64,000 bases of DNA, taken from the NCBI RefSeq assembly GCF_010587385.1, contig NZ_CP047476.1:62001-126000 (forward strand), in the 5' to 3' direction. The notes beneath the pieces were generated by a model. It did no database searches and was not told the DNA's origin. It worked only from the letters and a program-made list of their open reading frames with translations. Origin of the DNA: Vibrio astriarenae. GTDB lineage: Bacteria; Pseudomonadota; Gammaproteobacteria; Enterobacterales; Vibrionaceae. A program made the translations under genes and the position numbers. Positions 4,757-31,326 of this stretch are shown piece by piece; positions within the stretch are counted from its first letter, which is position 1; each line of letters opens with the position of its first letter.

Positions 4757-4982
4757 TAGCATGTGAGTCATGAAACAAGGCTGAAAACGGTTTCATGAAT
4801 GATAAATAAAATATGATGTTGATCTAATCGCTGCCCAGTTTGATGGTCAGCGATTAGCTATAAATCACAAATTAATACATTAGTAAAAATAGAAAATAAC
4901 GTTAATAAATAAGGTAATTGCTCGTTAATAGAAAAGATAACAATATTAAAATCACGAGTGATTTTTTAATCGGGTAACGGAC

Positions 4983-6029
4983 ATGGCATCAGTAACATTT
5001 AAAAGCTTGAAAAAAAGTTATGGTAATACTCAGGTCGTAAAAAATATCGACCTTGAGATAAAACATGGGGAGTTTATTGTTTTACTTGGCCCTTCTGGCT
5101 GTGGAAAGTCTACTACACTACGTATGCTTGCAGGTCTAGAAGATATTACTGATGGTGAGATCATGATCGATGATCTTGTGGTTAATGACCTTCACCCAAT
5201 TGAAAGAAACATCGCAATGGTGTTCCAAAGCTACGCGCTTTACCCGCACATGACAGTGGAAGAGAACATCGGTTTCAGTCTAGAAAACACAGGCGTTGAC
5301 AAAGCGAAGCGCAAAGAAATGGTCGCTGAAGTGGCTGAGGTTCTAGAATTAACGCCACTGCTAGAACGTAAGCCCAAAGACCTCTCGGGCGGCCAGCGCC
5401 AACGTGTTGCAATGGGTCGCGCAATGGTTCGTACTCCAGAAGTATTCCTGTTTGACGAGCCTCTATCTAACCTTGATGCCAAGCTTCGTGGTCAGATGCG
5501 CAAAGAGATTCGTGCACTGCATCAGCGTGTAAAAACCACAGTGATTTATGTAACACACGATCAAGTTGAAGCGATGACGCTTGCAGACAAGATTGTGATA
5601 TTAAACAACGGTGTTATCGAACAAGTTGGTACACCGATTGAAATATTTGAAAATCCAAAAACTGAATTTGTCGCCAAGTTTATTGGTACGCCAGAAATGA
5701 ATATTTTTGATGTCGATAATACTGATATAGCAAGTTGCTTTAATAATAGTGATCTAGGTAACACTATTCAAAAAGTCGGTATTCGTCCCCAAGACATTGT
5801 TATCAATAAAAATGAGATTGAACCAGAGTTCCGTTGCGAAATGCCATTAAGTGTTATTAGCAGTGAAGTGCTTGGTTCAGTTATTCACTTGGACTGCAGA
5901 TTTAACGATAAACGCATTGTTCTAGAAACAAGTTACGTTGAAGAACAGATAATAGGAGATATTACCGCTTATTTCGACCAACGAAAAGCACACTTTTTTG
6001 ATCTAAACGACAAAGCTACCCTACGATAA
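4983..6029 (+). CDS. ABC transporter ATPase, MalK/UgpC type
   Basis: The 348-residue energy-coupling subunit of a sugar importer. Walker A is GPSGCGKST (36-44), Q-loop Gln82, signature LSGGQ (134-138), Walker B VFLFDE (154-159) and switch His192. The C-terminal third (about 237-348) is the TOBE-like regulatory domain of MalK-type ATPases, which shows slower-evolving AT-richer code than the N-terminal part. The gene precedes a binding protein and two MalF/MalG-type permeases on the same strand (12 bases to the binding protein). It is placed first in the set, unlike most mal loci. The ATPases of this family are sometimes shared among importers. Confidence 0.93.
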
Positions 6030-17994: not shown

Positions 17995-18104
17995 TTTTTA
18001 CTACTCACTGAGTAATAAAAACCAATAACAGGTGAAGGCGTGATGCTCACCTGGCGTCACCCCTTTGCCTAAAGAAAACATATCCAATAATTAAGGACAA
18101 TATC

Positions 18105-19874
18105 ATGCCAGTAACAATCCTACTGTCATTCTTTTTCTTTACCGGGTTCGTTGTGTTTTATACCTGGTCCCGAGTTAAGAATCAGAAGAACACTTCAAAA
18201 GACGGCTTTTTCCTCGGAGGTCGAAGCTTAACCGGTGGCCTAATTGCAAGTTCACTGATCCTAACCAACCTGTCTGCCACCAGTTTTGTCGGTATGAGCG
18301 CACTTTCGTTTAAAGGCAATATGTCGGTAATGGGTTATGAAGTTGCATCAGGCATTACCCTGATCATCATCGCGCTATTTTTAGTGCCGCGATATCTAAA
18401 GCAGGGTATCACCACGATTCCTGATTTCTTAGAGTCTCGCTACGACTTGTCGGTTAAGCAGTTTGTCACCGTACTCTTCCTACTCAGCTACATTGTTAAT
18501 CTTCTACCAAACACGTTATACGCTGGCGCTATGGTTATCGGTGGTATCTTTGATGTCGAGACCATGTTGGGCATTAGCCGTTTCCAAGCGATTTTGCTGA
18601 TTGCAACCATCATTGGTGTACTCGGTCTTTTCTATGCGATCTATGGCGGCCTCAAAGCGGTTGTCATTGCAGATACACTCAATGGTGTTGGTCTGATTGT
18701 GGGTGGCTTAATGATCCCCATCTTTGGTCTGATCGTTTTGGGTGACGGCAGCTTTATGGACGGTGTGGATGTGATTACAACCAACGCTACTGACAAGCTT
18801 CAAGCGGTAGGCGCGGAAGACGATCCTAATGTTCCTTTCTCGACTATGTTTACGGGCCTGCTGTTAGTAAACCTTTATTACTGGGGTACCGATCAAGCGA
18901 TCATTCAACGTGCACTTGGTGCCAAGAATCTGAAAGAGGGGCAAAAAGGGGTGATCCTTGCTGGTGCAATTAAGGTGCTCACTCCGCTGTTTTTAATTAT
19001 CCCTGGTATCATCGCTTACCATATGTTCGGCACCGTTGATGCCGCAGGCCAAAGTTACGAAGCGGACACCATGTACACTCGCCTCGTCAACGAAGTGTTA
19101 CCCAAGCCACTGGTCGGTTTCTTCCTTGCCGCTATGTTTGGTGCCATCCTATCCACGTTTAACGGTGTACTAAACTCGTCAACAACGTTATTCACATTGA
19201 ACGTCTATAAGCCAATGTTTGATAAAGAGAACAAGCTTTCTGACGAGCAACTTGTGAACAAAGGACGCTCATTTGGCTTGTTCATCGCTATCCTTTCGGT
19301 AGGTATCGCACCGTTCATCATGTTCGCACCGAACGGTTTGTTCGATTTGCTACAACGTTTAGCGGGGCTATTCAGTGTGCCAATCTTCACCATCGTGTTT
19401 ATGGGTTACGTTACTAAACGTGTGCCAGCGGTAGCAGCCAAAGTCTCGCTTGCAGTGTTCGTTGCAGCGTACGGTATCGTGCAGTTTACGCCAGCAGCAA
19501 TGCATGACTACTTAGGCCCTCTAAAACCATTGGCAGAGTTGCACTTCTTCCATCAGTTGGCTGTGTTGTTTGTAGCGTGCTGCGGCATCATGTTTGTGAT
19601 TGGCAAGGTTCGCCCTCGTGACACGGATTACGTACTTCCAGTCAACGAAGCTATGGACATCGAACCTTGGGAGTTCCGCTTTGAAGCCTCTGCGGTCATC
19701 TTGTATATGGTACTTGGCGCCTACATCACGTTCTCTGACCTTGGTCTGGTTGCCGGTGACACCTCATTTATGGTGACGTATGCACTGTGCGGAATCGTGA
19801 TTCTTGGTGGGATCTTTGCTCGCATCAAAAAGAAGCAGGCGAATGCTAAAAGGTTAGCAGCGCAAGAAGTTTAG
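18105..19874 (+). CDS. Sodium:solute symporter, YidK/SGLT family
   Basis: A 589-residue inner-membrane symporter with about 14 hydrophobic segments. The opening (SKDGFFLGGRSLTGG, NLSATSFVGMSALSF, YLKQGITTIPDFLE) follows E. coli YidK closely and belongs to the SLC5 family that includes the Vibrio galactose symporter. It lies about 110 bases after the alpha-galactosidase gene on the same strand and probably imports the galactoside or galactose under the same LacI control. The exact sugar is unknown. Confidence 0.88.
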   Translation: MPVTILLSFFFFTGFVVFYTWSRVKNQKNTSKDGFFLGGRSLTGGLIASSLILTNLSATSFVGMSALSFKGNMSVMGYEVASGITLIIIALFLVPRYLKQGITTIPDFLESRYDLSVKQFVTVLFLLSYIVNLLPNTLYAGAMVIGGIFDVETMLGISRFQAILLIATIIGVLGLFYAIYGGLKAVVIADTLNGVGLIVGGLMIPIFGLIVLGDGSFMDGVDVITTNATDKLQAVGAEDDPNVPFSTMFTGLLLVNLYYWGTDQAIIQRALGAKNLKEGQKGVILAGAIKVLTPLFLIIPGIIAYHMFGTVDAAGQSYEADTMYTRLVNEVLPKPLVGFFLAAMFGAILSTFNGVLNSSTTLFTLNVYKPMFDKENKLSDEQLVNKGRSFGLFIAILSVGIAPFIMFAPNGLFDLLQRLAGLFSVPIFTIVFMGYVTKRVPAVAAKVSLAVFVAAYGIVQFTPAAMHDYLGPLKPLAELHFFHQLAVLFVACCGIMFVIGKVRPRDTDYVLPVNEAMDIEPWEFRFEASAVILYMVLGAYITFSDLGLVAGDTSFMVTYALCGIVILGGIFARIKKKQANAKRLAAQEV

Positions 19875-19898
19875 TTGTTACATATAACTAAGTTCGGG

Positions 19899-19926
19899 GA
19901 GAGAGGTCTTATGGCTTCTCTCTTTT
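19899..19926 (+). terminator. Terminator-like hairpin between symporter gene and AraC gene
   Basis: AGAGAG (19900-19905) pairs with CTCTCT (19918-19923), followed by TTT. It lies between convergent genes; the stem is short. Confidence 0.5.
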
Positions 19927-19958
19927 GATTTTGAGGTTTTGAGTGTTTGGCTTTGCTT

Positions 19959-20828
19959 CTAGAAGAAACTTATAGGTAAGTAAAAATCTAACTCAAATGC
20001 TTCTTCATGGTTTAAAAAGTGGTTTTGATGATAGTGAACATACGCAGGTGTAGAGCGCTGTTTGAAGCCAGAGTTTGGTAACCATGTCTCTAGTATTATG
20101 CTGATTTGTGGCAGCAGCTCGCCATAAACACCCGTCAATCGAAACACCGCGTGCAAGCCACCTGGAATCGTCATTTGGTTGACGACGCCACGATACTTGA
20201 GCGGTTTATCAATCGCCATGCACGCCACATAGCGACATTTGTCCAACTCTACCCAAGCTGGATTAGAATGATGCAAACCATATTGCTGCGAGAAATCACG
20301 GCGCTCTGAGTGAGCCCATGCTTTTAACACTAGCCAAGCATTGCGAATCGAACGGTTATAGCCTTCATGACGGACGTAGGCAGCAAAGCGTTGTGGCACT
20401 TCAATAATCTTTGGCTCGGGCAAGGTTCGCCTCGCAACTCGATGGTAACCCGCTGCCACTTCAGGAGCCTTTAGGTAAGGTTTTTCGGCAACTTGTAGAT
20501 CGTGCTTGCGCCAAGCTCCGGGTGACATACCAAAGGTGGTTTTGAAGGCGCGGCTGAAAGACGATACCGAGCTGAAACCACACTTATTCGCTATATCGAC
20601 GACTGATGATTTAGTATCGAACATCAGTTGGTTTGCAGCGTATTCCATGCGTGTGCGACGAATGTATTGATGAATAGACTCCCCCACCACGTCTTTGAAT
20701 ATGCGGTGGAAGTGCTGCTCAGAATACGCTGCTACATCGGCCAGCTCTTTAGCGGATAGTTCTCTACTTATGTCTTGGTGAATATAGAACAGAACGTCAT
20801 TGATTCTGGAAACCTGTTGCTGGCTCAT
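19959..20828 (-). CDS. AraC-family regulator with GyrI-like effector domain
   Basis: A 289-residue regulator with an N-terminal AraC double helix-turn-helix (about 8-108, including AYSEQHFHRIFKDVVGES and CGFSSVSSFSRAFKTTFG) and a C-terminal GyrI-like small-molecule-binding domain (about 125-289), the Rob/SoxS-like layout. Such proteins often control multidrug or stress genes. It is divergent from a PLP-dependent aminotransferase gene with about 130 bases between, so that enzyme is the first candidate target. No operator was recognised. Confidence 0.88.
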   Translation of the reverse strand: MSQQQVSRINDVLFYIHQDISRELSAKELADVAAYSEQHFHRIFKDVVGESIHQYIRRTRMEYAANQLMFDTKSSVVDIANKCGFSSVSSFSRAFKTTFGMSPGAWRKHDLQVAEKPYLKAPEVAAGYHRVARRTLPEPKIIEVPQRFAAYVRHEGYNRSIRNAWLVLKAWAHSERRDFSQQYGLHHSNPAWVELDKCRYVACMAIDKPLKYRGVVNQMTIPGGLHAVFRLTGVYGELLPQISIILETWLPNSGFKQRSTPAYVHYHQNHFLNHEEAFELDFYLPISFF

Positions 20829-20959
20829 AACCTAACACTTCACACAAATTCGCATAAATGGACATGTTTAACAGCATAAATGGACACGAAAGGTTTGGCA
20901 ATTCCCATGTAAACTCGCTTCGATTAAGAGCAACCGTCAATAATACGAGAAACACACAT

Positions 20960-22108
20960 ATGGAAATCGCGCAGTCCCTACAACAAATAAAGTCATCCTA
21001 CATTCGAGAAATCCTCGCTGCCGCAAGCGATAAAAATGTCATTTCACTTGCTGGTGGTCTGCCGGACGAGAAGACCTTCCCATTAGAGTTAATGAAGCCG
21101 ACGCTTGAACGTTTGGCAGACACGCCAGAGGTGTTCCAATACGGTTCAACATCAGGCTACGGACCTCTATTGAGTTTTCTAGGCGATTATTTCAAGCTTC
21201 CTGGAACACATACCATCATGATTACCACTGGCTCTCAACAAGGGTTAGATTTAATCGCACGCGCCTATGTGAATCCAGGTGACAAAGTCTTGATGGAAGT
21301 CCCAAGCTATCTCGGTGCGATGCAGGTGTTTGGCTTGGTTCAAGCAAATATCCTTACCGTTTCTCAAACTGACTTTGGCCCAAACCTTGAAGAGCTTGAG
21401 CAATGCTTTGCAGAGCAAAAGCCGAAAATGTTTTATGCGGTGCCAGATTTCCATAACCCAACTGGCGTATGCTGGGCATTGGAAACAAGGCAAAAGGTTG
21501 CAGAGCTATGTATTCAATACGATGTAGCTCTAATCGAAGATGCGCCGTATCGCGAACTGCGTTTTTCAGGTGAGGCTCTTCCGATGGTTTCTGATTTCTG
21601 TCCACAAAACGCTATCGTGCTTCGTTCATTCTCTAAGATTGCTTCCCCGGGTCTTCGTATCGGTGTTGTTACGGGAAAAGTCAGCTATTTGGAGCCACTT
21701 ATAAAAATTAAACAAGGGGCTGACCTGCACTCAAGTGTTCCAATGCAAGCACTCTTACATGGCTTGCTGGAGCATGACAACTTCGAAACGCATATCACCA
21801 TCATTCGTGAGTTGTATAAGTCTCGTTATGATGTAATGTTCTCAGAGCTAGAAAAACAGCTGCCAACCGGTTGTGTCTTGAGGCCCGTTGATGGCGGCAT
21901 GTTCGTATGGGTAGAAATTCCAGAGTGCGATACGTTTGAGCTAGCCAAACAGCTACTAGTAAACGGTGTTGCCGTCGTGCCAAGCCCAGTTTTTTATCCA
22001 GAAGGCGCTGAGGTAAAAACGGCGCTGCGACTTAACTTCACTAATGCAACCTCTGAAGAGTTGAAAGTGGCGGTTACTCGCTTAGCGCACGTATTACACA
22101 TACTTTAA
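20960..22108 (+). CDS. PLP-dependent aminotransferase (class I/II, 2-aminoadipate aminotransferase-like)
   Basis: A 382-residue fold-type I aminotransferase. The start MEIAQSLQQIKSSYIREIL and ISLAGGLPDEKTFP fit the LysN/ARO8-like subgroup that overlaps the catalytic domain of MocR regulators. Other family motifs are GSQQGLDLIARAYVNPGDKV, VPDFHNPTGVCW and the PLP-lysine motif SFSKIASPGLRIG. A longer frame opens at 20858, but family homology starts at the ATG at 20960 and no DNA-binding domain is attached. It probably acts on branched, aromatic or aminoadipate-type amino acids; the substrate is not deducible. It is divergent from an AraC-GyrI regulator. Confidence 0.87.
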   Translation: MEIAQSLQQIKSSYIREILAAASDKNVISLAGGLPDEKTFPLELMKPTLERLADTPEVFQYGSTSGYGPLLSFLGDYFKLPGTHTIMITTGSQQGLDLIARAYVNPGDKVLMEVPSYLGAMQVFGLVQANILTVSQTDFGPNLEELEQCFAEQKPKMFYAVPDFHNPTGVCWALETRQKVAELCIQYDVALIEDAPYRELRFSGEALPMVSDFCPQNAIVLRSFSKIASPGLRIGVVTGKVSYLEPLIKIKQGADLHSSVPMQALLHGLLEHDNFETHITIIRELYKSRYDVMFSELEKQLPTGCVLRPVDGGMFVWVEIPECDTFELAKQLLVNGVAVVPSPVFYPEGAEVKTALRLNFTNATSEELKVAVTRLAHVLHIL

Positions 22109-22216
22109 TATGTCGAGGGAAGTAAGAAGAGGTGAAATGCTGAGCAGCTATAAAAACTAGAACCATTACTATCTAGCGGTCAGCAAAGCGTTCTCCTTCA
22201 ATACATTACTAGCAGA

Positions 22217-24223
22217 TTACACAACTAGTGATTCTATTAAATAGTCTAGGATAGGGTCACTATTGATTGATTCGTCTCGACATGGCATGAAAGTGGGTGC
22301 TTTCAACCAACCACGGTTCATCAGTTCATCCAATAAATCGTGGTATCGGAAACTGCATTTCCCAACATACATATTGTCGATAGAACGCTGCTTTTCTGTC
22401 TGTAGAGCTTGCAAGAAGCCTTTAAGGTATAAGTGATCTTTAGTAAAACCACCGCCGCGATATACTCGAGACGTTAGGGAAAATGCGCTCTCTTTATCCA
22501 GATTCAATCCCTCATATAGATAGCTATAGGTTTGATAGAAATCCTGTTCATTCAGCATTGAGTCTACAGCTAAGACGCGTTTCGCCAACATATTGATGCG
22601 CTCATGTGACAAGTTACCAGACCGATATTCAGCTAAGATTGCCAAACCTTCTTGAGATAGGGTTGAACCGGGTAGACCTAAACGCAAAACTTTAAGTGGC
22701 TGAGTTCGAGCGTTATAGTTTGTTGCCATATGAACGCCGAGTTCATGTTGAACCAACCGTTCTATTTCTCGATCAGTGAAAATAGCCCTGCTATTCACAT
22801 GCAGTGTTGGTGGTTGAGCCGATACCATTGCCCTCGCCGCTATTTTGCTTGAGGAAGCCACCTTACATCTCATACCCAGTTTCACTGCTGCCGTTGACAG
22901 TTTGTCCATTGCCTCTTTCGAGGTAAATGTCTCGTTTATCTCTTCCTCAAGTGGTTTTGCATAGAGTAGAAACCGAGCATTCCCTAAGTCTTTTTCATTA
23001 GGACGTCCGTGATAGCGCAATGCGTTATACAAGAATGCTTCACTCCCTACAGAAGTGAGTAAATCCATCTTATCATTAAGTTTTTGCACCATATCACTGT
23101 ATAAGTGGCGCATGTCAGGATCGGAAATCTTCTCTATAGGCAATCGGTAGAGGCGTTGTTTAAAATCGCTAACATTGATTGGCAACTGTCGATAGCGATA
23201 GTTCGGTTTATATCGACTAGGGTTTGCCTCAAAGCGCTTAAACTCAGCAATCAAGTTCGTCGGGTTAACGTATTTGAGCGTTTCAACTTTATTCGCAAGT
23301 TGATATAGCTGCCGATCAACATTCAGTAGGGCTGGCTCAATGCAAGAACTCAACATATCGGCTTTGTTAGTTCGACGCTTTTTGTTGTACTTACGTTGAA
23401 CAAACGCACTGGTTTGGCTAAATGCCGCTTTTAGTCCAGATTGTAATGCCTCTAATACTAAAGGAAACGGTGTGCCACTCTCTTCTTCCATGAAGACTTT
23501 TTTGACTTCCGTTGGCAGAACAAGGGTGCGGTCAAAATGAGCATTGGTATGTGAGATCAGGTAGCCTCTGCCTTCAAAGACGGAATCCAACTCAGCTGTT
23601 GTTGAAATATTAGGCAGCGGGATCTTAGCCAATTCCGAGGCAAACCGATGCACGACTGATCCCCAACGTTCCATATCTATTTGGGTAGTGCCAATGTTAA
23701 ACACAGGAGCATCATTACGCTGGCGCTTATAGTTATATGAGTGAATGTCAAACACAACCACGCTGTCATGCAGGGCCTCAAGCTTAGTTATGATGGCTTC
23801 ATAGAGGGTATAGAATGCCGAGTGTTTGCGATGACTCTCAGTTCGATGTTTGGTGCTAAGCGGCTTCTTCCAGACTAATCGATTCCATGCCGACTTGTAG
23901 TACGTACTCAAGGTCATGGCTCGATTCAAGTCATATTCAAATCGCGAGTCTAATCCCACCATGGTAATAGGTTGGGATGCGATCATATTGTCAGTGAAAG
24001 GGTCCTCTTCAAACAGTCGCTCAGGCTCAGTAAGTACACAACGATGCACTAATTCATCTCGCAGACGAGAGCCTGCGTGAATGGCGGTACATACCACAGG
24101 GAGGTATTCATCGATTTTGACGAAACAACCAGCGTCCGCAAGTTCACCAGCAAAAGGTTGCCCTCGCTGGATAAGCGAGAGCATTTCAGATAGTGTATAT
24201 TTTTTATGGTTCAATGTGGGCAT
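22217..24223 (-). CDS. FGase-like domain fused to QEGLA/MATCAP-like (DUF1704) metallopeptidase
   Basis: A 668-residue two-domain protein. Residues about 20-275 resemble N-formylglutamate amidohydrolase: HAGS (His49), SRFEYDLNR and the metal-site motif DIHS (Asp160/His161). Residues about 290-660 are the DUF1704 domain named for its QEGLA motif, with HELGVH (His493, Glu494, His498, an HExxxH zinc site) and the third-ligand candidate Glu525 in SQEGLA. In animals the related MATCAP enzymes remove the C-terminal tyrosine of tubulin with an HExxxH site. The ATG at 24223 is chosen; a GTG at 24247 adds 8 residues. It overlaps the ATP-grasp gene by 20 bases and is last of three coupled genes. Bacterial members are labelled as flavohaemoglobin-expression-modulating, but the true substrate is unknown; two hydrolase domains in one chain suggest a peptide- or amide-trimming role. 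Confidence 0.85.
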   Translation of the reverse strand: MPTLNHKKYTLSEMLSLIQRGQPFAGELADAGCFVKIDEYLPVVCTAIHAGSRLRDELVHRCVLTEPERLFEEDPFTDNMIASQPITMVGLDSRFEYDLNRAMTLSTYYKSAWNRLVWKKPLSTKHRTESHRKHSAFYTLYEAIITKLEALHDSVVVFDIHSYNYKRQRNDAPVFNIGTTQIDMERWGSVVHRFASELAKIPLPNISTTAELDSVFEGRGYLISHTNAHFDRTLVLPTEVKKVFMEEESGTPFPLVLEALQSGLKAAFSQTSAFVQRKYNKKRRTNKADMLSSCIEPALLNVDRQLYQLANKVETLKYVNPTNLIAEFKRFEANPSRYKPNYRYRQLPINVSDFKQRLYRLPIEKISDPDMRHLYSDMVQKLNDKMDLLTSVGSEAFLYNALRYHGRPNEKDLGNARFLLYAKPLEEEINETFTSKEAMDKLSTAAVKLGMRCKVASSSKIAARAMVSAQPPTLHVNSRAIFTDREIERLVQHELGVHMATNYNARTQPLKVLRLGLPGSTLSQEGLAILAEYRSGNLSHERINMLAKRVLAVDSMLNEQDFYQTYSYLYEGLNLDKESAFSLTSRVYRGGGFTKDHLYLKGFLQALQTEKQRSIDNMYVGKCSFRYHDLLDELMNRGWLKAPTFMPCRDESINSDPILDYLIESLVV

Positions 24224-25244
24224 TCTTAACAGCCATACGGAAAGCACTTTTTCTCTGTTGAAGCAGGTCTTTGGAGTTCACTATGTTCTCAACAAAATCG
24301 ATGACCTGACGCTGTAGTCTGACGCGGTTGAGCTTGTTGATACGCATGATGCCACCAGGACTGAGTACATTAACCTCAACCAACTTGTTGCCAATTACAT
24401 CCAAGCCCGTGAAGTAAAGACCATCTCGAACCAATTTTGGGCCAATAGCAGCACATAACCGTTTTTCTTCTTTGGTGATACTATGCTTAACAACGGTGCC
24501 ACCAGCATGAACATTTGAGCGGATTTCGCCTGTTGCAGGGACGCGCCTCATTGCACCGATTGGCTCACCATTCAGCATAAGAATTCGCTTATCGCCTTCC
24601 TCTGCACCCTCAATATAATCTTGTAGGATCACATAGTTGCTTTGATCTCCTTCACCGATATAGAAATCGAGCAAAGAGCGGAAGTTCTGCTGTGCATTCT
24701 TTTCAATCACAATCACGCCATGACCGCCAAAGCCATTGAGTGGCTTTAGAATCATCTTTTCACTGTCGCTTTCCTCTAAAACACGCTGCAGGTAATCGCG
24801 ATTTTTAGACACGTGTGTCGCAGGAATAAACTCACTCGCAGCACCACCCATACTCGCGGTATAGAGTTTATTGTTTGCAAGACGAAGCCCCTCAAGATCA
24901 TTAATGATGAGGGTGTCATCTTTTATTGAGTCCAGAAAGTTCAGTGCTAAGTTATCCAGAGGAGGGTTTGCACGCATGAAGATCACATCAAAGCCAGCCA
25001 TCGGTAAGCGAGCTTTGGAGAACTCAGCTTGACGATAGAATGAGGGAATCTTGTCTGATATCTTTTGACCTTTCTTCAGGACATTACAAAAACCAAATAC
25101 TGTACTATCGCGTATGGTCAGACCACTGGTTGTTGTAATCGCCACGGTGTGGCCTCGAGAAGCACACTCGTGTACCAAACGTAATGTTGTGTCTGTTTCC
25201 GGGCAAACTCGTTCCCAAGGGTACATAAGAAAACAGATGTTCAT
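24204..25244 (-). CDS. ATP-grasp ligase, glutathione-synthetase (GshB)-like
   Basis: A 346-residue ATP-grasp enzyme. It follows GshB in order: INDLEGLRLANNKL (about 114-127), the glycine loop KPLNGFGGHGV (167-177), GDKRILMLNGEPIGAMRR (about 217-234), AGG (247-249) and FTGLDVIGNKLVEVNV (about 278-293) with Mg-binding Glu290/Asn292. Such enzymes join a carboxylate to an amine through an acyl phosphate. No GshA partner is nearby, and the substrate need not be gamma-glutamylcysteine. The start codon shares one base with the stop of the upstream small gene (TAATG), and its 3-prime end overlaps the peptidase gene, so all three are translationally coupled. Pairing of an ATP-grasp ligase with a MATCAP-like peptidase suggests an add-and-remove pair for an amino acid or peptide tag; this is inference. 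Confidence 0.86.
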   Translation of the reverse strand: MNICFLMYPWERVCPETDTTLRLVHECASRGHTVAITTTSGLTIRDSTVFGFCNVLKKGQKISDKIPSFYRQAEFSKARLPMAGFDVIFMRANPPLDNLALNFLDSIKDDTLIINDLEGLRLANNKLYTASMGGAASEFIPATHVSKNRDYLQRVLEESDSEKMILKPLNGFGGHGVIVIEKNAQQNFRSLLDFYIGEGDQSNYVILQDYIEGAEEGDKRILMLNGEPIGAMRRVPATGEIRSNVHAGGTVVKHSITKEEKRLCAAIGPKLVRDGLYFTGLDVIGNKLVEVNVLSPGGIMRINKLNRVRLQRQVIDFVENIVNSKDLLQQRKSAFRMAVKNAHIEP

Positions 25245-25594
25245 TACTCGTCATCCCCTAAGGCGTAGGCGTTGTAGTCGTCTTCACTGATAATCGGTTT
25301 ACTATTTAGTGAGTGAAAGCGCTTTTTGCCACGAGAGAGTTTGACATATTTCGCCCAAGTTTTTTCCAGTTTGGTTGTAGGCTCTTTTTGACCTTTTACG
25401 ACATTTAGAAAGTCCACTTCCGCTTGGTTTTCTGGCGTCAAGTCGCCACGTTCAAGAGCTAAAAGTGTTGTACCAAAGAAGGTTAAAATTTCGTCCTCGA
25501 CCAAAGTAAAGTCACCTGATTTAGAAAAACCACGTGAAAAGTGGGTGTTGTCGTAGAAGCGAGTTTTTCCTTGACGAACATCTTGATTTGACAT
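25244..25594 (-). CDS. MaoP/DUF413-like small protein
   Basis: A 116-residue protein resembling E. coli MaoP of the DUF413 family: TRFYDNTHFSRGFSKSGDFT near the start, EPTTKLEKTWAKYVKLSRG and KRFHSLNSKP later. E. coli MaoP helps organise the Ori macrodomain; whether this paralogue does so is unknown. The ATG at 25594 is preferred; another at 25603 gives three more residues. It is the first gene of a three-gene coupled operon with an ATP-grasp ligase and a MATCAP-like peptidase. The C-terminus is flexible and acidic (ends YNAYALGDDE), as would suit a tagged tail, but that is speculative. It could alternatively be a regulator of the two enzymes. Confidence 0.78.
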   Translation of the reverse strand: MSNQDVRQGKTRFYDNTHFSRGFSKSGDFTLVEDEILTFFGTTLLALERGDLTPENQAEVDFLNVVKGQKEPTTKLEKTWAKYVKLSRGKKRFHSLNSKPIISEDDYNAYALGDDE

Positions 25595-26021
25595 TGCAAT
25601 CATCTCGATTAATGAGTGTTATTGATAGGCGAAAGATATGCGGAGAATCGCAATGTGAACAACAAAATATTTTTGTCGTTAAGATTAGTTGTTTCTATTA
25701 TTCATAGTGTTACGAAACCACACGTAATCCTGATGGAAAACGGGCATCGAATAACACTGAATAAAGCAGTGTACTAGAGACAAGTGGGTCAGCGTTCTTC
25801 TGTGTGATTCGCACCCCTGAACACATTTATATTTAGCTTCGAATTTGTTGCCACGAGGAGGAATGATATTTACCAACCAACTACTAAATGTTTCAAATAG
25901 CAGATAGTTGCTACAAAACATGAATGTCTAGATTTTTATGTTGTAGCTGCAACAAAATGATCTTACCATCCATGTTACTACTTTAGTGACTGACAACTAA
26001 CGAATGCTCCAAGGTATCATT
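25595..26021. promoter_or_regulatory. Divergent control region between the MaoP-like operon and a MarR gene
   Basis: A 427-base spacer without a convincing gene. The inverted arms GTTGCTACAA (25907-25916) and TTGTAGCTGCAAC (25941-25953) share the half-site TTGTAGC and lie about 75 bases before the MarR start. This is the best candidate MarR operator and could control both directions. A leftward frame at 25685-25921 shows no ribosome site or family likeness. Confidence 0.5.
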
Positions 26022-26471
26022 ATGGCTTATAACGATGATGAAATAGCATCACCGCTGCTTCATGAGTCGACTTTTTTTGTGATGGGGGTGGCGTACCGTC
26101 GCTTTCGTAATCAAGTCCAAGAAGTACTGTTAGATAAACATGACATCACTACTGAGATGCAAAAAGCACTAGAGATACTCGACTATCACAAAAAGCTTTC
26201 TCAGCAGGCATTAGCTGATAAGTTGATGAAAGAGAGAAGTACAGTCAAGCGTTTGGTCGACAACATGTTGAAACGCGAACTGGTGACAACGGTATCTCAC
26301 CCAACCAATCAAAAGTTAAAACTCATTCAACTTACAGCATCAGGCAAAATCGTGCATAAAAGTGGTAATGAGATCGTCACTAAGATTCAACGTCAGTGGC
26401 TCAACACACTGGACGAAAAACAAGAGGTGCTATTAAAAAGTGCCCTAATTTCTCTGATAGAGAAAAACTAG
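26022..26471 (+). CDS. MarR-family regulator
   Basis: A 149-residue winged-helix regulator with the MarR core at about 30-125 (LSQQALADKLMKERSTVKRLVDNMLKREL and a wing with HPTNQKLKLIQLTASG). The ATG at 26022 has AAGG 7 bases upstream, while the earlier in-frame ATG at 26004 lacks a site. MarR proteins usually repress neighbouring genes and are released by small ligands. It is divergent from the MaoP-like/ATP-grasp/peptidase operon, so that operon is its likely target. Two terminators follow. Confidence 0.9.
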   Translation: MAYNDDEIASPLLHESTFFVMGVAYRRFRNQVQEVLLDKHDITTEMQKALEILDYHKKLSQQALADKLMKERSTVKRLVDNMLKRELVTTVSHPTNQKLKLIQLTASGKIVHKSGNEIVTKIQRQWLNTLDEKQEVLLKSALISLIEKN

Positions 26472-26481
26472 AGCCCATTAT

Positions 26482-26506
26482 GGGGGTTAATCACCCCCGG
26501 TTTTTT
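26482..26506 (+). terminator. Rho-independent terminator after MarR gene
   Basis: GGGGGT and ACCCCC with a 5-base loop, then CGG and a T6 run. Confidence 0.85.
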
Positions 26507-26539
26507 ATCTTGTATTGTGCACATCTAAATAGAATGCAA

Positions 26540-26567
26540 AAAGGAGCTGAGAGTCAGCTCCTTTTTT
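26540..26567. terminator. Bidirectional terminator between MarR gene and GH43 gene
   Basis: AAGGAGCTGA (26541-26550) and TCAGCTCCTT (26554-26563) form a 10-bp stem with a 3-base loop; T-rich on the plus strand and A-rich before the stem, so it works for the leftward GH43 gene as well. Confidence 0.85.
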
Positions 26568-26582
26568 CGTTCAAACGATTGA

Positions 26583-27632
26583 TTAGTCTAAATACGGCTT
26601 GATGGTTTCAATAGAACCATCTTCATTGTGCGTAAGCTCTGCCATCTTGATGCTACGCAGGTGAGTTTGGCCTGCAGATAGAGAGCTATCGTGGTAGAAC
26701 AGGTACCACTTACCTTGGTATTGAGCCACTGAGTGGTGTGTTGTCCAACCCAATACCGGCTCAAGAATCACACCTTGATACTTAAATGGACCGTATGGTG
26801 ATTCGCTGGTGGCGTAAACGATTTTGTGCGTATCGCCAGTCGAGTATGAGAAGTAGTAAACGCCATTGTGCTTATGCATCCAAGGGCCTTCGAAGTAGCG
26901 GCGGTCGTTATCGCTTGCAAGTAGCAGCTCACCATTTTCGTCAAGGATCTCAATCTCTCGCGGTGCCTCAGCCAAATCAACCATGTTGTCAGCCAGTTTT
27001 GCGACAAGTGGTTTTAGTGCTGGCTCATGATCTTCAGGGAAGATCTCTTCACCGTATTCATTGTCACGGTAATTCTGCAGTTGACCACCCCACAGGCCAC
27101 CAAAGTACATGTAGTACTCGTCATTATCTTGGAACACAGCAGGGTCAATACTGTAAGTGCCCTCAATGTGCGACTCTTCAGGTATGAAAGGACCTTCAGG
27201 ATGATCACCAACGGCAACACCAATGTGGAAAATGCCCTCATAGTTTTTCGCTGGGAAGTAGAGATAGTACTTACCGTCTTTCTCCGCTGCATCCGGTGCC
27301 CACATTTGACGCTCAGCCCATTTGACGTCTTTCACGTCTAAGGCGTTGCCGTGATCGGTGGCTTTACCGAAAGGGCGATCAAGAGAGATGACGTGGTAGT
27401 CTCGCATGTCGAAGTGATCACCGTTGTCATTCAAAGGCTGATCGGTTTCAACATCATGCGATGGATAAATGTAGATACGGCCATTAAACACATGTGCGGA
27501 TGGGTCTGCGGTATACATATGTGTAACGAGGGGAGAGGAGATAGGGGTTAGAGAGCTTGCTCGTGCTAAGTCTTGCTCTGTTACGCGCTCTGCATCACTG
27601 ACTTCTGGTTTTTCTACTACTGATTCAGTCAT
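26583..27632 (-). CDS. GH43 glycosidase (arabinofuranosidase/xylosidase type), cytoplasmic
   Basis: A 349-residue single-domain five-bladed propeller enzyme. The likely catalytic triad is base Asp43 (YTADPSAHV), pKa-modulating Asp163 (SIDPAVF) and acid Glu248 (YFEGPWM). There is no signal peptide; the first 30 residues are charged and may be disordered. GH43 enzymes of this shape release L-arabinose or D-xylose from xylo-oligosaccharides; arabinofuranosidase action on arabinoxylan fragments is my first guess. It lies on the same strand as, and about 180 bases after, a GH43 beta-xylosidase and xylA. The string TTTGGTAATC lies upstream at 27706-27715. A GAGAA ribosome site supports the start. 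Confidence 0.88.
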   Translation of the reverse strand: MTESVVEKPEVSDAERVTEQDLARASSLTPISSPLVTHMYTADPSAHVFNGRIYIYPSHDVETDQPLNDNGDHFDMRDYHVISLDRPFGKATDHGNALDVKDVKWAERQMWAPDAAEKDGKYYLYFPAKNYEGIFHIGVAVGDHPEGPFIPEESHIEGTYSIDPAVFQDNDEYYMYFGGLWGGQLQNYRDNEYGEEIFPEDHEPALKPLVAKLADNMVDLAEAPREIEILDENGELLLASDNDRRYFEGPWMHKHNGVYYFSYSTGDTHKIVYATSESPYGPFKYQGVILEPVLGWTTHHSVAQYQGKWYLFYHDSSLSAGQTHLRSIKMAELTHNEDGSIETIKPYLD

Positions 27633-27752
27633 TTTTTGTTCTCTACGTTGGACTCAATTTACTAAATTCAATATACAAACTTGCATAAGCGTTATCTATT
27701 TGTAGTTTGGTAATCGATATATGATATTTAGTAGTGTTTCTTGTCTTTTTTG

Positions 27753-27786
27753 AAAGGCCAGTTGTCTGTGACAATATCTGGCCTTT
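27753..27786. terminator. Stem-loop between the two GH43 genes
   Basis: AAAGGCCAG (27753-27761) and CTGGCCTTT (27778-27786) with an inner TTGTC/GACAA stem and TGT loop form a 14-bp hairpin with one 3-base bulge. It lies just after the stop of the leftward beta-xylosidase gene; the T run is weak, so it may be a terminator or an mRNA-stabilising element. Confidence 0.6.
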
Positions 27787-27809
27787 GCCTATCGTTTGCC
27801 TAGCAGTGA

Positions 27810-29423
27810 TTACGACTTTTCTTGATAGTCGAAGTAGTCAAAGTCGGCATGGACTTGTTGTCCGGTGATATCGGCGGCAAACAATGCAGCGAAACTACCG
27901 GTGAATCGGAAGATGTCTGGGCCACCTTCATCAGACAGTGGAGTACTGTTCAAAGCAGGGCCAATTTGCTGCCAGTTCACACCATCCAATGAGAACTTAA
28001 AGGTGTACCATTGATAGTCCAAGTCGAGCTTTAGATAAACTTCACTTGCATCACCGATTAGCACGTCGTCTGAATACTCACCATAAACGTCATTGATATT
28101 ACCAACTACTTGCAGCACTCGCTGACCCTCATCGTTACAGGTCATCTTCAGGAAGTAGTGTCCGTTACGAGAGTAGTAGGCACACAATCCAGCCATTTGA
28201 TATGGCGTCTGTGGGTTAAACTCCATTTTGGTTTCAACACTGGCATAGTGTGACTGGAAGCGACGCGCGATCATGCTTTGCTCATAGCGTGATGATAAGT
28301 AATGGCGTCCCTTCAAGCGCAGATAACCTGGGCGTTCAGTGAGTGAGCCCCACGCATCATCCATTGGCTCGCGCAGTGTTTGGAAGTTCACATCAAGTAC
28401 CGCTGAGTCAAAATCCTCACGTGCGGGCAATGCAGGCCAAGGGCATGGTTCTAACTCCGGTGCGATAACGTCAACAACAGGCGTTTTCCCCGTCGTTACG
28501 TATGGCCAATTGTTGTCCCAGTGCGCTTTTTGAATCGCACTTTCTCTACCCAAAATCGAGAAGCCGTTGTCATACTTCGGCATGAACTGATAGCCCTCAG
28601 GGTTTGGTATGCGACGTCCACAAAGATGACTTAAATACCACTCTCCGTTTTGTGTTTCTACTAAGAAACCATGGCCAGCACGCGATAGCTCTGCATGCTC
28701 TTGAAAACGACTGGTGAGAATAGGGTTGTCAGGATGAACTTCATAAGGTCCCCAGATGTTTTTAGAGCGACAAACCGTGACCGCGTGATTACGCTCCGTA
28801 CCACCTTCCGCCGTAATGAGGTAGTAATAGCCATCTTTCTTCATCATCTGAGGGCCTTCAGTACAGCCGAGCTCGGTGCCCGCAAAGATGTTCTTTGGCT
28901 CTCCAACGAGCTGACCTAACTCAGAGTCAAACTCTTGAAGCACGATGCCGCCGAAGAAGTTGGTTTTTGCTCGACCATCCCACACCATGTTAAGCATGTA
29001 TTTCTTGCCATCATCATCGTGGAATAGGGAAGGATCGAACCCATAGTTGCCGATAGACACCGGCTCGCTCCATGGGCCTTCGATATTGTCCGCAGTGATG
29101 ACAAACGATGGTGTTGCCATCCAGTTGCCACCACGACAAGAGTGAACATTAGAGAAGCAAAGCCAAAACTTGCCATCAGAGTAGGTTAAGGCAGGGGCAT
29201 AGACACCTTCCGAATTATCCATGCCTTTCATGTCAAGTTGACTGGTGCGCGTCAGCGCATGACCGACTAAGCGCCAGTTCACCATATCTTTAGAGTGATG
29301 CAGTTGAATACCAGGAAACCATTCAAACGTGGACGTTGCGATATAGTAGTCATCGCCGACGCGTACGATGGAAGGGTCAGGGTTAAAGCCTTTAAGCACT
29401 GGGTTTTGAATCATTTGTGTCAT
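27810..29423 (-). CDS. GH43 beta-xylosidase with C-terminal beta-sandwich domain
   Basis: A 537-residue enzyme of the Selenomonas/Bacillus beta-xylosidase type. The N-terminal propeller carries base Asp16 (NPDPSIV), Asp130 (GFDPSLF) and acid Glu189 (CTEGPQM); from about residue 330 a beta-sandwich follows as in this subfamily. There is no signal peptide, so it should cleave imported xylobiose and longer oligomers to xylose in the cytoplasm, and may also release arabinose. A paralogue with the same layout is at 60893..62509. It sits between a shorter GH43 and xylA, all leftward. The start may be the ATG at 29423 or 29414 (MIQNP). Confidence 0.93.
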   Translation of the reverse strand: MTQMIQNPVLKGFNPDPSIVRVGDDYYIATSTFEWFPGIQLHHSKDMVNWRLVGHALTRTSQLDMKGMDNSEGVYAPALTYSDGKFWLCFSNVHSCRGGNWMATPSFVITADNIEGPWSEPVSIGNYGFDPSLFHDDDGKKYMLNMVWDGRAKTNFFGGIVLQEFDSELGQLVGEPKNIFAGTELGCTEGPQMMKKDGYYYLITAEGGTERNHAVTVCRSKNIWGPYEVHPDNPILTSRFQEHAELSRAGHGFLVETQNGEWYLSHLCGRRIPNPEGYQFMPKYDNGFSILGRESAIQKAHWDNNWPYVTTGKTPVVDVIAPELEPCPWPALPAREDFDSAVLDVNFQTLREPMDDAWGSLTERPGYLRLKGRHYLSSRYEQSMIARRFQSHYASVETKMEFNPQTPYQMAGLCAYYSRNGHYFLKMTCNDEGQRVLQVVGNINDVYGEYSDDVLIGDASEVYLKLDLDYQWYTFKFSLDGVNWQQIGPALNSTPLSDEGGPDIFRFTGSFAALFAADITGQQVHADFDYFDYQEKS

Positions 29424-29556
29424 TATTCATTCTCAGATCAGGAAACAGCGATATCGAAGTAGAGGGGAGTCCAGAAACCTTATTTATTCGAATCGAAAGT
29501 AACTTAAGCAAAAAGTGACTTAGCAAAAAACGTTAGTTAGAAAAAAAGCTAGCTGG

Positions 29557-29599
29557 AAGAAAAAAGCCCAAGCATCTCCCCCTGAGTATACTTGGGCTT
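29557..29599 (-). terminator. Rho-independent terminator of xylA
   Basis: On the minus strand AAGCCCAAG and CTTGGGCTT (29591-29599 with 29564-29572) form a 9-bp stem followed by a T run. It lies about 70 bases after the xylA stop and separates it from the GH43 genes. Confidence 0.85.
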
Positions 29600-29667
29600 G
29601 TGATAGTGACTCATGTGACGTTGCGAAACTTGGAGCAAGCACACCAAATATCGCAACGTTTACAGCA

Positions 29668-30987
29668 TTACTTGTAAATGAATCCGTTCACAATGTTTTC
29701 TAGGTACTCTTGGCGACCGGAAACTTTTGCTGGTGCGATGTTGTTGTCTACCGCGTAGTCAGCAACCGCTTCCAGTGAAAGGTCACCTGAAAGGATCTTC
29801 TTACCTAGGTCAGTGTTCCAATCCGCGTAGCGTTGAGCGATGTTCTTAGAAAGAACGTCATTTTCAATCATCTCAGCAGCACGCTCTAGTGATAGAGCCA
29901 TGGTATCCATACCACCAATGTGACCGTGGAAGAAGTCTGCGAGGTCCGTTGATGGACGACGTACACGAGCATCGAAGTTGAAACCACCAGTAGTGAAGCC
30001 GCCAGCTTTCAAGATTTCGTACATCACTAGCGTGTTTTCTTCTACGCTGTTCGGGAATTGGTCTGTATCCCAACCTAGTTGTGCATCACCACGGTTCGCG
30101 TCAATAGAGCCAAAGATACCTAGTGAAGTTGCCGTAGCCACTTCGTGGTGGAAGCTGTGACCTGCCAGTGTTGCGTGGTTTGCTTCGATGTTAACTTTGA
30201 TCTCTTTCTCAAGACCAAACTGTTTCAAGAAGCCGTAAACCGTAGCCGTATCGTAGTCGTACTGGTGCTTAGTTGGCTCTTGTGGTTTGGGCTCAATCAA
30301 GATTGAGCCTTTAAAGCCAATCTTATGTTTGTGCTCAACGACCATCTGCATTAGTCGACCAAGCTGCTCGCGCTCTTGACGTAGATCTGTGTTTAGCAAC
30401 GTTTCATAACCTTCACGACCACCCCAAAGTACGTAGTTTTCACCACCAAGGCGTTGTGTTGCGCCCATTGCGTTGAAGATTTGAGTAGCCGCGTAAGCAA
30501 ACACTTTAGGATCAGGGTTAGTACCTGCCCCCGCCATGTAGCGTGGGTTAGAGAAAGCGTTCGCAGTGCCCCAAAGGAGCTTCATGCCAGTCTCTTCTTG
30601 TTTCTGCTCAAGCACGTCAACCATAGTTTGAAAGTTGTTTACGTACTCTTTTAGAGAGTGACCTTCTGGAGCTACGTCAGTATCGTGGAAACAATAGTAA
30701 GGCACGCCAAGCTTTGCGAAAAACTCGAATGCAGCATCCGCTTTAACGCGTGCTTGTTCCATTGGGTCAGAAGCTTTTAGCCACTCATGGTCAAATGTGC
30801 CATCACCGAAGATGTCTGCACCACCCCAGCGGAAGTTGTGCCAGTAACAAGCAGCAAAGCGCAGGTGCTCTTTCATGCTCTTACCAAGAATCATCTTGTC
30901 CGCGTCATAATGGCGGAATGCTAGAGGGTTAGTTGAACCCTTTCCTTCAAATTGGATCTTCTTAATGTCTTTAAAATATTCAGTCAT
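29668..30987 (-). CDS. xylA: Xylose isomerase
   Basis: A 439-residue xylose isomerase, the usual length of the E. coli type, converting D-xylose to D-xylulose with two divalent metals. The catalytic pair His101/Asp104 (FHDTD) sits at the same numbering as in E. coli, and [17 protein letters not shown] supplies metal ligands. The ATG at 30987 is chosen since the family begins MTEYFKDI; an upstream in-frame start adds 21 unlikely residues. It is divergent from a GPH-family importer and is the complete copy of the gene whose start lies at 1..141. The xylulokinase partner is 22 kb away at 52814. Confidence 0.97.
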
Positions 30988-31326
30988 AGCCAAAATTCCG
31001 TTAGCAGTAGTATGTGGACTTCGTTCATGTTCAATGTTTAACGTTTTCACTCACTTCAGCAATTATGATTTTTGATACCAAAATTCTTCTATTTATTAAA
31101 CGTGCGTAAGCTCTCAAAAATAGAAGGTTATTAGAATTGTAAATCATAAGATTTAATCTTAAGTTGTTGATTTATAATGATGTAGTGATTTTTGTTATTG
31201 TTTTTATGCAAGATTGGTCACACTAAGTAAATATCGTAACGGGGTTACTAATTTGGGCAAATTGATTATATTTGTTGCCCAGCCAAAATGAGTGTCAGAA
31301 AAACTGTATCCCGGAGAGAAATTATA
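30988..31326. promoter_or_regulatory. Divergent control region between xylA and the GPH transporter gene
   Basis: A 339-base AT-rich spacer. It holds a perfect 9-bp inverted repeat, CTTCTATTT (31086-31094) with AAATAGAAG (31118-31126), a 13-base palindrome AAGATTTAATCTT (31148-31160), and TTTTGGTATC on the minus strand near 31074-31083. One or more may bind the XylR-like regulator encoded next to the transporter. No gene was seen here. Confidence 0.5.

Follow-up and report, generated by a model that had tools for sequence, protein, structure and literature searches.

Three overlapping genes of Vibrio astriarenae as a candidate module for adding and removing residues at an acidic C-terminal tail

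What do a small MaoP-like protein, a GshB-type ATP-grasp ligase and a double peptidase do together, when their genes overlap at a single locus? The question is raised by a stretch of 64,000 nucleotides of Vibrio astriarenae (assembly GCF_010587385.1, contig NZ_CP047476.1, positions 62,001 to 126,000, forward strand), which lies on the second of the two contigs of the genome; the whole stretch is called the window here, and positions are counted from its first letter. An earlier note had proposed that the ligase and the peptidase place a reversible tag on the MaoP-like protein or on a metabolite. We tentatively propose, with somewhat less than even confidence, that the three genes encode an add/remove module, that the C-terminal tail of the MaoP-like (DUF413) protein is its most likely target in Vibrionaceae, and that the tail is switched with conditions. 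As a single candidate, this tail ranks first in the family, and its probability is about the same as that of a small-molecule substrate. The features of the locus are the following, where FGase stands for N-formylglutamate amidohydrolase-like and pLDDT for predicted local distance difference test.

25244..25594, minus strand: DUF413/MaoP-like gene, 116 amino acids; PF04219, 108 bits
25247..25324, minus strand: acidic C-terminal tail of the DUF413 protein, residues 91-116, candidate substrate; from AlphaFold2 pLDDT and composition
24204..25244, minus strand: GshB-type ATP-grasp ligase paralogue, 346 amino acids; PF02951 and PF02955, NF009110
22217..24223, minus strand: FGase-MATCAP gene, 668 amino acids; PF05013, PF08014, TIGR02421; two predicted metallocarboxypeptidase-type folds
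23387..24136, minus strand: FGase domain, residues 30-279
22220..23278, minus strand: MATCAP domain, residues 316-668
22730..22747, minus strand: HELGVH metal-site motif, residues 493-498; conserved in the alignment, matches human HEIGTH
22640..22654, minus strand: QEGLA motif, residues 524-528, with E525 as putative third metal ligand; matches human EEGLA

The gene coordinates and the overlaps of 1 base (DUF413 and ligase genes) and 20 bases (ligase and FGase-MATCAP genes) were as described in the earlier note, and Pfam and NCBIfam matches agree with the three families that it had named. The FGase-MATCAP gene starts with ATG, as in P0001 and several equally long relatives; the mechanical open reading frame has a GTG start 8 codons farther upstream.

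The arrangement is conserved in Vibrionaceae. The NF009110 cut-off was exceeded in 41 of 121 genomes of the family, and in 41 of these 41 a DUF413 gene is located 5' and a MATCAP gene 3' of the ligase gene on the same strand. This linkage is far beyond chance, and the co-occurrence on which the earlier note had let its proposal depend is thus found. The 41 genomes comprise 35 of 35 Photobacterium genomes (group g8), 5 of 36 from the genus of the window and one other. No DUF413 gene away from the ligase locus was found in 37 of them; one of the 37, G066, has two at the locus, which flank the ligase-peptidase pair on both sides (L134). Eleven of 52 Vibrionaceae MATCAP matches occur without the ligase, one being a short fragment (G102) and one adjoining DUF413 (G069); at the latter locus (L133) the DUF413 and FGase-MATCAP genes are neighbours with no ligase gene between them.

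Beyond Vibrionaceae, a class survey of 274 genomes (ligase threshold E 1e-100) and an order survey of 217 genomes were used. In the class survey, 14 genomes contained the ligase (15 genes; 9 genomes over the NF009110 cut-off), and MATCAP adjoined it in 12; the other two, G330 and G312, had no MATCAP match. The ligase gene comes first in three of the 12 pairs, including that of the window, and the MATCAP gene comes first in nine. At all nine MATCAP-first loci, an FGase gene directly precedes the MATCAP gene, and the close or overlapping genes encode FGase, then a Pfam-unassigned N-terminal domain joined to MATCAP, then the ligase. Profile comparison identified this N-terminal domain as an FGase relative (probability 94.8%, 238 columns). 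Because the residues matching D159 and H161 of the window FGase are E and W, it is a pseudo-FGase that is probably dead. In addition, the FGase and MATCAP matches are fused in the 891-amino-acid proteins P0177, P0188, P0198, P0200 and P0226. The order survey found the ligase in 14 genomes, three of them from the genus of the window, and MATCAP behind the ligase in all 14. A joint function of the ligase and the double carboxypeptidase is well supported by the linkage in two gene orders and by the fusions of FGase with MATCAP. As such pairs are widespread without DUF413, the enzyme pair is the core of the system and DUF413 is a frequent, not an obligatory, partner; a requirement of the pair for DUF413 was rejected on the basis of the pair-bearing class and order genomes that lack it. 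Of the 11 order-survey pair genomes from outside the genus of the window, G562 and G573 fit neither of the two layouts of LysR, DUF413 and ligase genes described below, and in G450 a contig end interrupts the locus.

The ligase is related to glutathione synthase and differs from it in specific residues. Its score was 486 bits with NF009110, titled glutathione synthetase (cut-off 408), 280.5 with the glutathione synthase equivalog NF003573 (just above the cut-off of 272), and 248.4 with TIGR01380, below the cut-off of 299.05. The score with the RimK equivalog was 49 bits versus 331 required, and the TTL (tubulin tyrosine ligase) family was absent from the seven Pfam matches (to E 0.1). Contig 1 of the genome encodes another GshB with a stronger match (PF02955, 274.7 bits versus 194.5 for the trio ligase). 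The nearest solved relative of the trio ligase is 1gsa. In a residue comparison of three sets including GshB, 32 positions were at least 90% conserved in all, whereas several positions that are fixed in at least 19 of 21 GshBs carry a different residue in 50 to 53 of 53 window-type ligases. The separate gshB and the switched residues make it unlikely, as judged from sequence, that the ligase makes only glutathione, an outcome that the earlier note had set against its own proposal.

The third protein is predicted to unite two unrelated metallocarboxypeptidase-type folds. PF08014, now named MATCAP, matched with 311 bits versus a gathering score of 27, and the fold of this domain matches human MATCAP structures in profile and fold searches, which bears out the relationship suggested in the earlier note. 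The N-terminal part matched PF05013 with 49.8 bits, and the FGase profile and fold test agreed. The cut-off of TIGR02421 (QEGLA) was exceeded; the HutG deformylase equivalog TIGR02017 yielded 12.4 bits versus 278.75 required, and a PDB search with the single FGase-MATCAP sequence gave no match. The HELGVH and QEGLA motifs that had been noticed earlier were located and are invariant: H493, E494 and H498, as well as Q524, E525 and G526, were unchanged in 50 of 50 aligned proteins. In the profile alignment they pair with human HEIGTH and EEGLA, and the MATCAP metal motif given in PMC10499314 is HExxxH plus the E of an EEG-like motif.

Computation shows which families the proteins belong to, how the genes are coupled, that the metal motifs are conserved, that ligase positions are switched and that the acidic tail is disordered; from there we infer the directions of the reactions, the amino acid used and the tail as substrate. 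The GshB-derived ligase would activate a C-terminal carboxylate with ATP and join an amino acid to it, and the FGase-MATCAP protein would hydrolyze the bonds made by the ligase; such inverse chemistry at a C-terminal carboxylate would follow from the families. In Vibrionaceae the target would be the disordered acidic C-terminal tail of the co-encoded DUF413/MaoP protein, and the end of the tail would be switched with conditions, in Photobacterium damselae with low salinity.

MaoP is a chromosome-organizing protein. The DUF413 protein of the window matched PF04219 with 108 bits versus 25 and stayed below the PRK11027 equivalog cut-offs of NCBIfam (best 131.3 versus 135). Profile search found no solved relative. 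The AlphaFold2 model consists of three helices and a disordered end, with pLDDT below 50 for residues 91-112 and 114-116. Among the genomes of the four trio loci without an HdfR-like neighbor (below), further DUF413 copies exist in both that were searched whole: L009 in the genome of the window (G000), located elsewhere on contig 2 beside a divergent HdfR-like LysR gene, and L197 and L241 in G035.

The tails of the Photobacterium trio proteins have a characteristic end. The last residue is Y in 25, F in 4 and I in 2 of 31 rows, and DLDY is the commonest ending (17). Among 40 Photobacterium-like search matches (P0241-P0280), the tails ended with Y in 25, F in 3, I in 9, D in 2 and E in 1. A bulky hydrophobic last residue was found in only 3 of 47 DUF413 rows away from ligase loci, a set to which second copies from genomes with the pair also belong. 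Of the 35 Photobacterium trio genomes, 31 entered the counts at the DNA level; G022, taken to be P. lipolyticum, was judged from a named protein, and G087, G107 and G117 were left out. The counts and the DUF413 tree omit L117 and L118 (remote matches), L007, L010, L034, L041, L045 and L047 (genomes already represented), identical tails, rows of fewer than 80 residues and the second-copy comparison loci of genus g235. In that genus, the pair lies apart from DUF413, and a second DUF413 gene was present in 5 of 5 pair-bearing and 0 of 5 pair-less genomes tested; in G503, a sixth genome without the pair, DUF413 is likewise single. The second copy ends with FDL or FEL (5 of 5) and the common copy with ELDLDS or ELNLDS (10 of 10); the second copy could be a clade effect. 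Bulky ends are thus a pattern of two lineages, Photobacterium and g235, and not of many independent events. The Photobacterium end closely resembles that of alpha-tubulin. A docking motif is another reading of these tail ends, which are similar to bacterial SSB with its acidic tip as well.

Expression data come from a study of P. damselae (PMC10308900). At 1% versus 3% NaCl, A0J47_RS17020, annotated as glutathione synthase GshB, was up 38.42-fold and A0J47_RS17025, a QEGLA protein, was up 27.51-fold (PMC10308900). The tags are consecutive and belong to chromosome II; RimK was up 52.24-fold in the same low-salt Table 2 and is among the listed genes most raised, and the printed table names no DUF413 gene (PMC10308900). 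Judging from annotation and tags, we take the two genes to be the trio-type ligase and peptidase; the study treats the former as a true GshB (PMC10308900). A trio-type DUF413 protein of P. damselae, P0243, ends with -NDIDY.

Retention of DUF413 at unusual loci is consistent with the tail as target. Four trio loci of the genus of the window (the window itself, L001, L004 and L138) have no HdfR-like neighbor in the stretch read and have kept DUF413. Their DUF413 proteins form two diverged pairs, the window with L001 and L004 with L138, and the loci appear to have moved. A gene is called HdfR-like here when phmmer matches its product to E. coli HdfR, as can happen with other LysR proteins too; Pfam was applied to three such genes and confirmed LysR for both that were tested from the order survey. 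Within 18001-31000 of the window, no HdfR-like gene was matched.

Several observations weigh against the DUF413 tail as the target. DUF413 was found in only 5 of 274 class genomes and in 0 of 11 pair genomes other than the window. It adjoins the ligase in 2 of 11 non-Vibrionaceae pair genomes of the order survey (G413 and G518, between LysR and ligase) and is absent altogether from another two of the 11 (G407 and G562). In V. zhanjiangensis (L005, about 4870-5000), a C-terminal DUF413 remnant, with stops in the upstream frame, is followed by an intact pair. The aromatic end is confined to Photobacterium, and the 12 other ligase-locus rows end with D, E, N or T. P. lipolyticum is an exception in both directions, as its trio copy ends with -VEFD and its non-trio copy (L196) with -DDDIDF; together with the Vibrio tails, it led us to reject the rule that a pair entails an aromatic tail. 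Acidity alone does not mark the trio copies, since the last 20 residues contain 7.9, 6.7 and 7.0 acidic residues in Photobacterium trio, other ligase-locus and non-ligase-locus rows, respectively. Finally, the DUF413 copies mostly cluster by genus in a poorly resolved tree, on which the trio label requires 11 changes, so lineage history may account for the tail pattern. The earlier interpretation is supported in part. The predicted disorder and acidity of the tail, the retention of DUF413 with the pair away from hdfR and the likeness of the Photobacterium ends to alpha-tubulin speak for a reversible tag on the MaoP-like protein, and the 11 sampled class pair genomes without DUF413 speak against a model confined to this protein.

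The strongest alternative, which we also regard as a serious possibility short of an even chance, is that the product made and recycled by the pair is a small peptide or an N-acyl amino acid conjugate, for example with an osmotic or redox role, and that DUF413 is merely co-regulated after the pair settled in the hdfR-maoP locus. The 11 class pairs without DUF413, nine of which are compact operons of FGase, pseudo-FGase-MATCAP and ligase, are readily explained in this way. Many GshB and RimK relatives use small molecules, and FGase relatives cleave N-acyl amino acids. The strong salt response would fit as well, and in six order genomes (G394, G407, G474, G515, G527 and G539) the ligase gene and an HdfR-like LysR gene are immediate, divergently oriented neighbors without an intervening DUF413. 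However, the four flanking genes scanned next to pairs, of the BrkB, pentapeptide, YflT and PAP2 types, showed no recurrence in this small sample, and a small-molecule substrate leaves unexplained both the DUF413 kept at loci away from hdfR and the extra DUF413 of g235.

A bolder form of the proposal, a bacterial counterpart of tubulin tyrosination in which the ligase would add, and the MATCAP carboxypeptidase remove, a bulky C-terminal residue (Tyr, Phe, Ile or Leu) depending on salinity, the acidic tail of a MaoP-family chromosome protein being the site, at least in Photobacterium and g235, is unlikely in our estimate. Less likely still is that DUF413 serves the enzymes as partner or regulator, in the manner of RimA with RimK, and that the target is another protein. 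The tight gene overlap, the many pairs without DUF413 and the same plan of ligase, protease and regulator in the rimABK operon (PMC11957791) would fit this role, but the tail itself looks like a substrate, being disordered, acidic and, in Photobacterium, aromatic at its end. Highly improbable, and rejected as the main reading, is an ordinary spare glutathione synthase in an operon for glutathione turnover: the NF003573 score and the title of NF009110 favor it, but the TIGR01380 score, the stronger gshB of the same genome and the switched GshB positions contradict it.

In the window, the trio is flanked (18105-31050) by an aminotransferase gene on one side and a MarR-type gene on the other, and the wider surroundings include genes that we take to serve sugar use, GH43 and xylose isomerase among them. 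At the locus, scans for promoters and terminators yielded sites no more numerous than in shuffles. None of the three proteins matched a PADLOC family (E 0.001), and an anti-phage defense system was therefore rejected.

Other loci showed further arrangements. At L121 (G283), two tandem ligases of the subfamily lie behind a single MATCAP gene. At L130 (G330), the ligase without MATCAP is followed by CorA, an MscS-type channel, an ATP-grasp gene and an AstE/AspA hydrolase; this ATP-grasp gene matches the ligase profile weakly and is RimK-like by size. CorA also adjoins a standalone MATCAP gene at L140, and an osmotic theme of the CorA and MscS neighbors is possible. A RimK-type gene adjoins the standalone MATCAP gene at L147. 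Standalone MATCAP genes were rejected as parts of the same system, as no type recurred among ten flanking genes at ten loci.

No paper on this gene trio was found in the open-licence PMC literature. According to PMC11957791, S6 is so far the one protein known to receive a C-terminal extension of poly-glutamate. If the DUF413 tail is the substrate, the trio would be a second bacterial system for reversible editing of a C-terminal tail, besides RimK/RimB on S6, and would correct the identity of a gene that carries the annotation glutathione synthase and is treated as such in one paper. The MATCAP enzymes would gain a bacterial setting with an opposing ligase, and a chromosome-organizing protein would be linked to salinity. 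Even with a metabolite as substrate, a widespread ligase-peptidase pair becomes directly testable.

Among known systems, E. coli MaoP belongs to PF04219 like the DUF413 protein, and at many loci the two also have in common an HdfR-like LysR gene as divergent neighbor. No ligase or peptidase gene follows maoP in E. coli, and the window copy has no nearby HdfR-like gene. With GshB, the trio ligase shares the ATP-grasp core and its invariant positions; it differs at the switched ones. In the tubulin tyrosination cycle, TTL acts on the tubulin tail and MATCAP/TMCP enzymes oppose it. The trio resembles this cycle in that an ATP-grasp ligase is encoded with a protein of predicted MATCAP fold and shared metal motifs, and, in Photobacterium, in an acidic tail whose last residue is aromatic. 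It differs in its GshB-type ligase without a TTL match, the extra FGase domain and the absence of tubulin. RimABK consists of the RimK ligase, the retropepsin-like protease RimB and RimA, and edits the C-terminus of ribosomal protein S6 (PMC11957791). Both are operons with an ATP-grasp ligase; the RimABK peptidase reverses the ligation on an acidic C-terminal tail, and RimABK is under environmental regulation (PMC11957791). RimK and the two enzyme genes are all raised at low salt in P. damselae. Unlike RimABK, the trio has a ligase of the GshB type and not of the RimK type, predicted metallopeptidase folds and not an aspartic protease, and DUF413 in the place of a cyclic-di-GMP phosphodiesterase.

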